DNA of 61,239 nucleotides from Spirochaetota bacterium (GTDB lineage: Bacteria > Spirochaetota > UBA4802 > JAFGJZ01). Shown here piece by piece: positions 15,757 to 19,624 of the stretch. Every line of letters begins with the position of its first letter. The first letter of the stretch is position 1. Where the stretch lies: positions 1-61,239 of the forward strand of contig JAQIBV010000040.1 of the NCBI GenBank assembly GCA_027858855.1, written 5' to 3'. The notes below the pieces were generated by a model. The model ran no database searches and was not told the origin of the DNA. It saw only the letters and a program-made list of their open reading frames with translations. The translations under genes were made by a program, and so were the position numbers.

Positions 15757-15785
15757 TTGACATAATAACAGGTCTAAACTTTATT
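15757..15785 (+). promoter_or_regulatory. Promoter of the leader peptide-ABC exporter operon
   Basis: A perfect -35 box TTGACA (15757-15762) is followed after 17 bases by TTTATT (15780-15785), a four-of-six -10 match. Transcription would start near 15792, about 23 bases before the leader GTG. Confidence 0.55.
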
Positions 15786-15814
15786 ACATTTTATAAAATT
15801 TCAGGAGAACCTTT

Positions 15815-15904
15815 GTGAAGCTTAAATCGATTATGAATCTGATTTTTACTATTTCAGGTAACTGGGCCTATACGGCTACAGGTGCGTCCACGTGTTCGAT
15901 TTAA
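15815..15904 (+). CDS. 29-codon leader peptide upstream of the ABC exporter
   Basis: A GTG preceded by AGGAG at 15803-15807 (7-base spacing) opens a 29-residue frame. It begins M-K-L-K-S-I-M, continues through a hydrophobic stretch NLIFTI, and ends in a small-residue tail, SGNWAYTATGASTCSI. It stops 26 bases before the first of two intrinsic terminators. The position matches translation-controlled attenuators such as BmrB ahead of bmrCD in Bacillus subtilis. I therefore call it a regulatory leader peptide (inference). Two alternatives are a small secreted peptide exported by the neighbouring transporter, though no modifying enzyme is nearby, or a membrane microprotein. Confidence 0.65.
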   Translation: MKLKSIMNLIFTISGNWAYTATGASTCSI

Positions 15905-15930
15905 CTCTATAACATAAAGAAAACAATCAA

Positions 15931-15959
15931 CCGCGGACGAAACTGTCCGCGGTTTTTTT
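15931..15959 (+). terminator. Intrinsic terminator 1 after the leader peptide
   Basis: CCGCGGAC (15931-15938) pairs with GTCCGCGG (15945-15952) around a 6-base loop and is followed directly by seven Ts. With flanking AA/TT the stem reaches ten pairs. This is an excellent Rho-independent terminator placed between the leader peptide and the exporter genes. GGACG in its 5' arm could instead pair with CGTCC at 15885-15889, inside leader codons 24-25. Confidence 0.85.
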
Positions 15960-15960
15960 A

Positions 15961-15976
15961 TCCCCAAATATGGGGA
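15961..15976. repeat. Small hairpin between the two terminators
   Basis: TCCCC and GGGGA pair over 5 bases around a 6-base loop. No T-tract follows. It may shape folding between the two terminators. Confidence 0.4.
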
Positions 15977-15980
15977 GCAG

Positions 15981-16016
15981 AAGCCGCTTTTTTGATAAAG
16001 GCGGCTTTTTTATTTT
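15981..16016 (+). terminator. Intrinsic terminator 2, just before the exporter start
   Basis: AAGCCGCTTTT (15981-15991) pairs with AAAGGCGGCTT (15997-16007, one G-U) around a 5-base loop, followed by TTTTATTTTT. It ends just before the TAGGAGA ribosome site of the first exporter gene, so transcripts must read through two terminators to reach it. AGCCG in the 5' arm could pair with CGGCT at 15873-15877 in the leader frame. Confidence 0.8.
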
Positions 16017-16028
16017 TAGGAGAATAGT

Positions 16029-17795
16029 ATGAAAACACTTCACTCACTCATAAGACTTATTGGAAATCACAAGCGTTTATTTGCTGCGGCATTAGGCGCT
16101 CTACTGCTTGGAGTTCTTTTCGAAGCTGCTGGGCGCCTAGTTATTCGTGACATTGTCGATTCAGCACTGAAGGAAAATGTCAGTTTTGCTGATATAAACC
16201 GTCAAATACTGATCTTTATCGCCTGTACGGTATTTTTAGGGTTCTTTCACTTTCTAAGCGGTCGCTGGAAAACTGCAACAACTGAAAAGATCACCCGGGA
16301 AATCCGGGAGAAGCTCTACAACCATATTCAAAGGCTAACATTTCACTATCATGACCATACACCGGTTGGCGAGCTTGTGCAAAGAGCCACTTCGGATGTC
16401 GATACAATACGACGCTTTTACGGCGAACAGATACCTGGATTTTTACAGATTGTCTTTAGATGCATAATCTTTTTCATCGCGCTCGCCCTGCTTGATATAA
16501 GACTGGCTCTTATCTCATCCGTGGTTGTTCCAGTTCTTACACTGGTTTCGACATTCTTCTTTTCACGGATTCATACGGCCTACGAAATTCATCAGAACTG
16601 TGAAGGAGATGTATCAAACGCCGTTCAAGAAAATATTCACGGTATACGTGTTGTTCGCGCTTTCGCACAACAGGATCGTGAAAACGACATGTTCGAAATT
16701 AAAAATCTGAAGCAACGTGAAGCAGGCATGAATGTAGTCTTCTGGCACTCAGCCTACTGGCCAGTTGCACACATTCTTTGCGGCATACAATTAACAGTAT
16801 CAATACTATATTCGGGCATGCTGGTAATAAACGGTGTTCACACAATCGGAACAATGGTCGCTGCTACATTTCTTTTTAACGGGCTGATCTGGCCTCTTCA
16901 AGACATGGGGCGACTTATTACTGAAATAAGCCACAGCTATGTTTCATTTAACCGTGTTGATGAAGTCATGAAACAGGCTCCTGAAGAGCTTAAAAGCAAT
17001 GTGCCTGTACCGGAAGAACCGATCAAAGGCAAGGTTGAGTTCCGCAATTTAAGCTTCAGTTATACGGATGATGAATCTGTGTTGAAAGACATTTCGTTTA
17101 TCTGTAATCCGGGAGAGACCATTGCTCTTGTTGGTGAGACCGGTTCAGGAAAGACTTCGATCGTGAACCTGCTTCCCAGGTTTTACCCCTATCAGAGTGG
17201 AGAACTACTTATTGATGACAGAGTGGTAACAGACTATTCTCGCGCCTTTCTGCGTAAGAATATCGGTATCGTAGAGCAGGATCCTTTTCTGTTTACCATG
17301 ACAGTTCGTGAAAACATTGAGTATGGAACAGACCGGGAGGTCAGTCTTGATGAGGTTATCGAAGTCGCACGAGCTGCAGCTGTTCACGATAGTATTATGG
17401 ATTTTCCCGAAAAGTACGATACCATTGTCGGCGAAAAGGGAGTTAGTCTTTCCGGAGGTCAGAAACAGAGAATAGCCATAGCTCGTATTTTGCTTAAAAA
17501 TCCGCATATTCTGATTCTGGATGACTCTACCTCGGCTGTGGATGCAGGAACCGAACAGTCAATCCGAGAGGCTCTGAAAAAACAGTTAAAGGACCGCACA
17601 ACCTTTGTTATCGCTCACCGGATTCAGACTCTCCAAGAGGCAGATCAGATTCTGGTGCTTAAGGAAGGTGAAATTGTACAGAAGGGAACCCATGAAGAGC
17701 TGATTGCCAATGATGGTTTCTACAGTACTGTTTTTAAACTTCAAACTGAACTTGAAAGCCAACTGGCTAACGAAATTAATTCAGAATATTTTTAG
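16029..17795 (+). CDS. ABC exporter half, degenerate-site subunit
   Basis: This is a type IV ABC half-transporter of 588 residues: a six-helix membrane domain (about 15-320) and a nucleotide-binding domain. Walker A is GETGSGKT (369-376), the signature is LSGGQ (474-478) and the switch histidine is His530. Walker B reads LILDD, so Asp499 replaces the catalytic glutamate. In heterodimeric exporters such as BmrC/BmrD and TM287/288 this marks the subunit forming the non-hydrolysing site. Its partner follows 29 bases later. The likely substrates are amphipathic drugs or lipids, unproven. Expression is probably set by the attenuator immediately upstream. Confidence 0.92.
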   Translation: MKTLHSLIRLIGNHKRLFAAALGALLLGVLFEAAGRLVIRDIVDSALKENVSFADINRQILIFIACTVFLGFFHFLSGRWKTATTEKITREIREKLYNHIQRLTFHYHDHTPVGELVQRATSDVDTIRRFYGEQIPGFLQIVFRCIIFFIALALLDIRLALISSVVVPVLTLVSTFFFSRIHTAYEIHQNCEGDVSNAVQENIHGIRVVRAFAQQDRENDMFEIKNLKQREAGMNVVFWHSAYWPVAHILCGIQLTVSILYSGMLVINGVHTIGTMVAATFLFNGLIWPLQDMGRLITEISHSYVSFNRVDEVMKQAPEELKSNVPVPEEPIKGKVEFRNLSFSYTDDESVLKDISFICNPGETIALVGETGSGKTSIVNLLPRFYPYQSGELLIDDRVVTDYSRAFLRKNIGIVEQDPFLFTMTVRENIEYGTDREVSLDEVIEVARAAAVHDSIMDFPEKYDTIVGEKGVSLSGGQKQRIAIARILLKNPHILILDDSTSAVDAGTEQSIREALKKQLKDRTTFVIAHRIQTLQEADQILVLKEGEIVQKGTHEELIANDGFYSTVFKLQTELESQLANEINSEYF

Positions 17796-17824: not shown

Positions 17825-19624
17825 ATGAGTGATAAAAGAAGCCGTGAAGACGAACTCTTTAAAAAACATTTCAGTGGTAAAATATACAAACCACTCCTGA
17901 AAATCGCGCTGGAAAACAAAAGACTTCTATTCGGCTTTTTGGGAGCGGTTATTGTTACCGCAATTATAGATTCGACCAACACCTATATCAGCAAATTTAT
18001 AATAGACGAAGGTGTAATTCCACGGGATGTCTCTGTTTTATTGAAATATAGTACGATCATGTTTACTCTGTTCATTTTGAACAGCATTACTATTTTCATC
18101 TTTATTATTTGTGCCGGCCGGCTGGGAGAGTATATGCAATACACCCTCCGCAAGCAGCAGTTTAACCATCTGCAGGAACTCTCGTTTTCGTTTTTTGACA
18201 AGATTTCAAGCGGATGGCTGCTTTCACGAATCACCAGTGACTCACGAAGGATTGCCGAACTGTGCACCTGGATGTTTCTGGATATGACATGGGGAGCCGT
18301 GAACATTGTGGTTGCTCTCATTTTCATGGCGACAATTAATGTTAAGCTTATGGGAGTTGTCGCAATAATGACCCCGCTTTTGGTCATTGCCTCTATTAAA
18401 TTCAGAACACTCATCCTGAAGGAGTACCGCAAGGTTCGTTCGATTAATGCCAGTATAACTGGAGCCTTCTCTGAAAACATATCAGGAGTCCGGATTGTTA
18501 AGGCTCTGAACCGTGAGGAGAAAAACCTTAACGACTTCTCTAAAATTACCGGGTCAATGTATAAGGCATCATTTAGGGCTGGATGGCTGTCGGCCTTTTT
18601 TCTACCGATAGTACAGATGATTACCACACTAGCTGTAGCTGCGATTCTTTATGTTGGTACAGCACAGATTTCGATTGGTGTTTTATCTGTCGGTGAAATG
18701 AGAGCCTTTATCGGCTACGTGCTCTTCATGATGTGGCCGATCGAAAATTTGTCGCGCGTCTTCAGTGAAATGCAGCGCTCCATTGCAAGCGCCGAACGGG
18801 TATTTTCGCTGCTGGATACTCCGCCCGATATAACAGACAAAAAGGAGAGCAGAAAAACAGCCGAATTTTCGGGTCACATTGAATTCAGGTCAGTCTCATT
18901 CTACTATACCTCCGAGACTCCTGTAATTTCAGATCTGAATCTAACGGTATCACCGGGAGAGGTCATTGCCATTGTAGGCCCAACCGGTGGAGGGAAAACC
19001 ACGCTGGTTAATCTGGCAGCGCGATTTTACGAGCCACGGGAGGGTACTATTCTCTTTGATGGTGAAGACTATCGTAACTGGACACAACAGGCCTTACAGC
19101 GGCGTATTGGTGTGGTTTTACAGGATCCTCACCTATTTTCGGGAACGATACGTGAAAACATTCTGTATGGTTGTCCCGATGCAACAGAGAAGCTGATTAT
19201 TGCCGCGGCTAAACAGGCTCAGGCTCATGGAATGATTCTGCGGTTACCAAATGGCTATGATGAGAATGTCGGAGAGGCAGGTAACCTTTTATCGGTTGGT
19301 CAAAAACAGCTGATAAGCCTGGCGCGCACAATTATTTCTGATCCGGATATTATCATCATGGATGAAGCTACGAGTTCCATCGACTCGATCACCGAGCATC
19401 TGATTCAAGAAGGAATGCACCGCCTGATGAGGGGGCGCACCAGCTTTATAATCGCACACAGGCTCTCTACTATCAGGGAAGCAGATCGGATTCTGGTTCT
19501 TGAGGCCGGGCGAATACGTGAATCAGGGACGCACAAAGAGCTGTTGCAGAATCATGGTCACTATTACGAGCTTTATACTAGCCAGATGCGAGTTGAAAAG
19601 GAGCACGAACTGGGACTGGCATAA
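17825..19624 (+). CDS. ABC exporter half, catalytic-site subunit
   Basis: This 599-residue partner has six membrane helices (about 30-325) after a charged N-terminal extension. Walker A is GPTGGGKT (385-392), Walker B ends IIMDE with catalytic Glu514, and His545 is the switch residue. Its signature is altered to LSVGQ (489-493). The pairing is self-consistent: its intact Walker motifs face the canonical LSGGQ of the first subunit, while the first subunit's defective Walker B faces this altered signature. AGGAGC lies before the ATG. It is one operon with the previous gene and probably with the spoIIM-like gene 34 bases further on. Confidence 0.92.
   Translation: MSDKRSREDELFKKHFSGKIYKPLLKIALENKRLLFGFLGAVIVTAIIDSTNTYISKFIIDEGVIPRDVSVLLKYSTIMFTLFILNSITIFIFIICAGRLGEYMQYTLRKQQFNHLQELSFSFFDKISSGWLLSRITSDSRRIAELCTWMFLDMTWGAVNIVVALIFMATINVKLMGVVAIMTPLLVIASIKFRTLILKEYRKVRSINASITGAFSENISGVRIVKALNREEKNLNDFSKITGSMYKASFRAGWLSAFFLPIVQMITTLAVAAILYVGTAQISIGVLSVGEMRAFIGYVLFMMWPIENLSRVFSEMQRSIASAERVFSLLDTPPDITDKKESRKTAEFSGHIEFRSVSFYYTSETPVISDLNLTVSPGEVIAIVGPTGGGKTTLVNLAARFYEPREGTILFDGEDYRNWTQQALQRRIGVVLQDPHLFSGTIRENILYGCPDATEKLIIAAAKQAQAHGMILRLPNGYDENVGEAGNLLSVGQKQLISLARTIISDPDIIIMDEATSSIDSITEHLIQEGMHRLMRGRTSFIIAHRLSTIREADRILVLEAGRIRESGTHKELLQNHGHYYELYTSQMRVEKEHELGLA

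Follow-up and report, generated by a model that had tools for sequence, protein, structure and literature searches.

The window, the 61,239-nucleotide contig of a Spirochaetota bacterium analyzed here, carries a short leader frame and two terminators ahead of a pair of ABC exporter genes, which raises the question of how transcription might pass both terminators to reach the exporter. From sequence comparison, we think it likely that the leader senses translation and thereby attenuates transcription of the exporter operon, with RNA near the leader end (segment 2) set against the first terminator. The elements are as follows.

15757-15762, + strand: promoter-like -35 box TTGACA, read from the sequence.
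15780-15785, + strand: weak -10 box TTTATT, 17-nt spacer to TTGACA.
15803-15807, + strand: leader Shine-Dalgarno AGGAG, from the sequence.
15815-15904, + strand: leader ORF, GTG at 15815 to TAA at 15904, 29 codons plus stop, MKLKSIMNLIFTISGNWAYTATGASTCSI, from the sequence; nine other exporter loci likewise have a short ORF at this position.
15822-15830, + strand: segment 1, UUAAAUCGA, complementary to the leader end at 15896-15904; seen in the window only.
15881-15889, + strand: segment 2, GGUGCGUCC, the putative antiterminator strand, within the final codons of the leader; a motif common to 10 exporter and 14 ABC ATPase leaders.
15929-15959, + strand: terminator 1, hairpin 3:4 plus U tract, with an 11-pair stem at 15929-15954, from terminator scan and covariation.
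15935-15939, + strand: segment 3, GGACG, in the terminator 1 5' arm; pairs with CGTCC at 15885-15889.
15949-15957, + strand: segment 4, GCGGUUUUU, terminator 1 3' arm and U tract, the proposed relay strand.
15962-15975, + strand: small CCCC/GGGG hairpin, lying in the loop that the proposed 4:5 relay stem would enclose, from sequence and fold.
15979-15987, + strand: segment 5, AGAAGCCGC, terminator 2 5' arm, complementary to segment 4 over 9 pairs.
15979-16016, + strand: terminator 2, hairpin 5:6 plus U-rich tail, with a 13-pair stem at 15979-16009, from sequence and terminator scan.
16018-16022, + strand: exporter Shine-Dalgarno AGGAG, followed by ATG at 16029, from the sequence.
16029-17795, + strand: ABC exporter subunit 1, ABC_membrane plus ABC_tran, with degenerate Walker B LILDDS.
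17825-19624, + strand: ABC exporter subunit 2, with canonical Walker B IIMDEA and altered signature LSVGQ.

Sequence inspection, a terminator scan and folding placed the leader ORF, its AGGAG, both terminators, the small hairpin and the exporter ribosome site where an earlier note on this DNA had read them. The promoter proposed there held up in part: TTGACA is clear, but the -10 is poor, and TTTATT is missing from the list of a consensus promoter scan. TTGAC-type boxes lie at a similar distance ahead of most related leaders. The leader RNA folds with z = -5.3 against dinucleotide shuffles (0/200 shuffles as good), and both leader terminators are among the 10 terminator-like sites of a 6 kb region in which shuffles predict 4.8. 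The window gave only sub-threshold hits, and no match at gathering score, to the curated covariance models of Rfam. Downstream, LILDDS occupies the position of the expected catalytic glutamate in subunit 1, a degeneracy complementary to subunit 2, and the subunit 1 sequence matches TM_0288, YheH (BmrD) and related structures. The two subunits look like a heterodimeric exporter.

The arrangement recurs: the leader and tandem terminators precede orthologous exporter genes in nine other Spirochaetota-like genomes, ten with the window, including its congener (G001) and a metagenome-assembled genome labelled Spirochaetales (L010). At the threshold used, no subunit 1 ortholog was found beyond the genus in same-order genomes. 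A profile search for the exporter defines a subfamily, set off by a clear gap in scores, and members occur in 14 of the 26 genomes of L010's order, with the element at eight genes there (L010, L076, L080, L082, L083, L085, L086 and L087). In other subfamily members (L044, L045, L047, L048, L049, L055, L068 and L069/L070), the short leader ORFs are different ones, the 5' regions are long and the shared RNA motif, approximately AGGUSYGYCC, is absent.

A covariance model, R2, comprising the leader end and terminator 1 (the window scores 49.5 bits) also gave high-scoring hits ahead of ABC-F genes. Two ABC-F proteins used as queries had 14 relatives in the phylum sample, 10 of them with the leader element, and a class-level scan added four more leaders (L157, L158, L160 and L162). 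Fourteen ABC ATPase genes thus have a single-terminator leader ahead of them: 13 ABC-F-like genes and one that encodes an ABC ATPase of unclear family. For all nine full-length proteins tested, the best NCBIfam family was NF000355, ribosomal protection-like ABC-F, with three of the nine above its cut-off; the same family came first, below cut-off, for the L157, L158 and L162 proteins, which are partial and stop at the locus end. The L160 protein had no NCBIfam match at the threshold used, and L144, which lay outside that scan, was counted as ABC-F-like from its close match to an ABC-F profile. L159 has the leader motif and terminator and no clear downstream target gene. We judged L121, L122, L163 and most hits below ~33 bits to be chance matches or ordinary terminators.

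In all 24 leaders (10 exporter, 14 ABC ATPase), the RNA motif lies near the leader end and can pair with the terminator 1 5' arm. In an alignment of 10 sequences (A4), the terminator 1 stem is 91.4% paired, with two-sided changes at 6 pairs, and none of 500 shuffles was as high in percent paired. In the same alignment, 83.8% of the segment 2:3 cells are paired and 3 pairs show two-sided changes, above all slid registers; 5/500 shuffles were as high on covariation score and two-sided changes, and 46/500 on percent paired. We also compared cognate 2:3 duplexes with swapped ones, using sequences that had been selected for having the motif. Across the ten exporters, cognate duplexes averaged -15.6 kcal/mol and swapped duplexes -13.5 kcal/mol (p = 0.005, by a permutation that ignores phylogeny); across all 24 leaders, the values were -16.5 and -14.0 kcal/mol (0/20,000 permutations, phylogeny again ignored). 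The cognate advantage also held in the ABC-F set when phylogeny was likewise ignored (p = 0.00015). Comparison therefore shows the predicted pairing between segment 2 and the terminator 1 5' arm to be conserved and covarying. The CGTCC/GGACG pairing that the earlier note had picked out in the window is borne out by these data, and covarying stems, which it had proposed to seek by aligning related leaders, are found in both terminator 1 and 2:3.

How might this pairing act as a switch? Under normal-speed translation of the leader, a ribosome arriving at its stop codon would cover segment 2, terminator 1 would fold and the exporter would stay off. If the ribosome were slowed or blocked early in the leader, or were absent, segment 2 would be free; it could then capture segment 3 once transcribed, so that terminator 1 could not form. 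Less certainly, the freed segment 4, which includes the U tract, might pair with segment 5 and so disarm terminator 2. In simple folding of nascent transcripts ending at segment 3, with ribosomes modeled by approximate masks, a free leader or an early-stalled ribosome allows the 2:3 pairing to form. A ribosome placed on the stop codon abolishes this pairing in most copies and weakens it in the others (0-2.7 expected pairs). The number of 2:3 pairs exceeds the mean of shuffled leaders in 10/10 exporter copies, and in each of the ten the observed pairing was reached by 0-7% of dinucleotide-shuffled leaders. At equilibrium, nearly every predicted state of the full-length leader favors the two terminators; the switch must therefore be kinetic. 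The window fold also contains a possible anti-antiterminator pairing, UUAAAUCGA/UCGAUUUAA, which we saw in the window sequence only.

What, then, would relieve terminator 2? The earlier note had proposed a second pairing between leader and terminator, CGGCT/AGCCG. It is present in the window, but CGGCT was not found in the congener leader, so this pairing is not conserved. We infer that a relay, in which the two terminators are linked by pairing of segment 4 with segment 5, is better supported, and we regard the relay itself as a hypothesis about as likely to be right as wrong. Capture of segment 3 lets segments 4 and 5 pair in 10/10 folded copies, and the 4:5 complementarity is available in all ten, at -12.4 to -19.8 kcal/mol. 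The same switch at terminator 1 could also operate with terminator 2 as a fail-safe that is leaky or otherwise overcome, with no relay, and we consider this possible, if on the doubtful side. In its favor, any two terminators are partly complementary because of their U tracts and GC arms: random pairs average -12.2 kcal/mol with a wide spread, and the mean pairing of the ten is only modestly stronger (P = 0.01, with the copies treated as independent although they are not). Moreover, cognate-versus-swapped covariation of 4:5 was not significant among the ten exporter copies (p = 0.16; further tests 0.13-0.36), the GCGG/CCGC core being nearly invariant, so the relay remains inferred. Two adjacent terminators also have a reported precedent in erm(K), as cited in PMC4335068. 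On the other side, a strong terminator 2, if unrelieved, would hold the pump off. The L082 copy bears on the same point: its hairpin 1 has lost the U tract (GCCGCGGTTAATAATTG), yet 4:5 complementarity and terminator 2 are kept. Upkeep of such a hairpin would be sensible mainly as part of a relay, and in sequence terms this copy argues for one.

We then asked whether the conserved entity is the RNA or the peptide. By the earlier note, terminators conserved without the leader frame would count against its reading, and this is half the case. A short ORF does persist in 10/10 exporter copies, where it overlaps the motif or ends at the pairing segment or immediately upstream of it, but its peptide is not conserved; window and congener leader peptides share little beyond TGAS. 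Nine exporter leaders read the motif as GGU GYG YCC-like codons. Elsewhere it is read in other frames, as AGG UGU GCC in L119 and GAG GUG UGC in L160, without loss of the pairing; the L080 ORF ends immediately upstream of the motif, and there motif and terminator change together (GAGGCACGC/GCGUGGCUC). Since the pairing survives these frame shifts and the early ORF end, the RNA rather than the peptide is conserved. For the same reasons, we rejected an arrest peptide conserved where the leader ends (G-V/A-P/S) as the main exporter signal, and we found no arrest motif shared among the exporter-class leader peptides. Strong, conserved RNA pairing and a varying motif frame would also suit a riboswitch, in which a structured RNA binds the exporter substrate directly and the ORF is incidental. 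We regard this as quite unlikely: no conserved aptamer-like fold was seen besides the terminators and the motif, Rfam offers no match, and an ORF that overlaps the motif or ends just short of it persists in every exporter copy.

For the translation-coupled attenuator, the most likely inducer is a ribosome-targeting drug, as judged from the target genes: ribosome-protection ABC-F genes have the same leader motif ahead of them. A leader that senses a particular amino acid, as in trp/his-type attenuation, rather than drug-slowed ribosomes would share the anatomy of a leader ORF with antiterminator and terminator. It is less likely still, as the leaders have no run of one repeated regulatory codon in common and the downstream genes encode exporters and ABC-F proteins, not biosynthesis. 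That these are ordinary tandem terminators ending an unrelated small transcript, without regulation, is hardly credible: terminators are common and the leader peptide is not conserved, but the same layout stands ahead of orthologous genes in 10 genomes and its antiterminator pairing covaries.

The translation-coupled attenuator thus preferred has a close parallel in the bmrB leader of bmrCD in Bacillus subtilis, where an antiterminator was proposed to form when ribosomes slow and induction by lincomycin and others was measured (PMC4191407). In both, a small ORF, whose translation in the window is predicted only, stands ahead of a heterodimeric drug exporter, and the antiterminator overlaps the terminator 5' arm, as covarying 2:3 in the window (PMC4191407); the match of window subunit 1 to YheH (BmrD) is a further likeness. 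By analogy, the window switch would work like the bmrB model (PMC4191407). "BmrB-like", the label used by the earlier note, is fair as a working analogy. However, bmrB has a single terminator, inside its coding region (PMC4191407), whereas the window has two, both after the leader stop at 15904, and its antiterminator strand is the leader end. A terminator inside the leader ORF being a defining feature of bmrB, we do not file the window leader as a member. The drug response, too, was measured for bmrB (PMC4191407), whereas the window switch is a prediction from sequence. The broader claim of the earlier note, that an ABC exporter of a diderm lineage is preceded by a translation-coupled attenuator, gains support from the conserved, covarying 2:3 pairing.

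Other systems share single features. As cited in PMC4335068, the erm(K) attenuator of Bacillus is a drug-inducible leader with two adjacent intrinsic terminators controlling an rRNA methylase. It is a precedent for the neighboring pair of intrinsic terminators that the window has between its leader ORF and the exporter gene; unlike erm(K), the window target is an exporter, and the likeness is one of terminator number, not of pairing details. Leader-peptide transcription attenuation also controls macrolide efflux and ABC-F genes in the streptococcal mef(E)/mel and msrD leaders, which have one terminator each and the leader peptides MTASMRLR and MYLIFM (PMC4335068, PMC10314930). Like these, the present leaders stand ahead of efflux or ABC-F genes; unlike them, the exporter-class leaders share an RNA motif, not a peptide. 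Naville and Gautheret (2010) predicted attenuators named rimP-leader and ABC-leaders, one upstream of a multidrug export operon, with a tandem-terminator variant of rimP-leader, in the available part of PMC2965389; that part describes no leader-peptide or relay scheme, and its text does not mention Spirochaetes or Treponema.

We place at about an even chance the full reading, in which the window switch is a two-terminator relay attenuator and its leader module, with one or two terminators, joins exporter genes and ribosome-protection ABC-F genes in a Spirochaetota-wide drug-response regulon. The data suggest that a diderm phylum controls resistance-type genes by ribosome sensing. No such switch was described for Spirochaetota in the literature searched, an absence that is weak evidence as subscription papers fell mostly outside the search. 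AGGUSYGYCC followed by a terminator offers a sequence signature for finding inducible exporters and ABC-F genes. The relay, if true, would let one ribosome event disarm two terminators in series, a testable joint switching of tandem terminators.

The ABC-F leaders have several features of their own. In eight of them (L145, L149, L150, L154, L155, L157, L158 and L162), a -10-like box ends ~5-8 nt before the leader ATG, so close that these leaders look leaderless; unlike them, the exporter leaders carry a Shine-Dalgarno and a 5' UTR. By eye, a (V/I)R(S/T)xG-like string is seen in the ABC-F leader peptides L144-L146, L148, L149, L154, L157 and L158, and also in L151 and L153, where the RNA motif is absent. 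This string could possibly be a drug-dependent arrest motif, through which the nascent peptide may contribute. Finally, a small hairpin (e.g., CAGTATTTTGAATACTG and GAGATATTTAATATATCTC) surrounds the stop codon of the leader in L144, L145, L148, L149, L150, L154, L157 and L158 and seems to covary.
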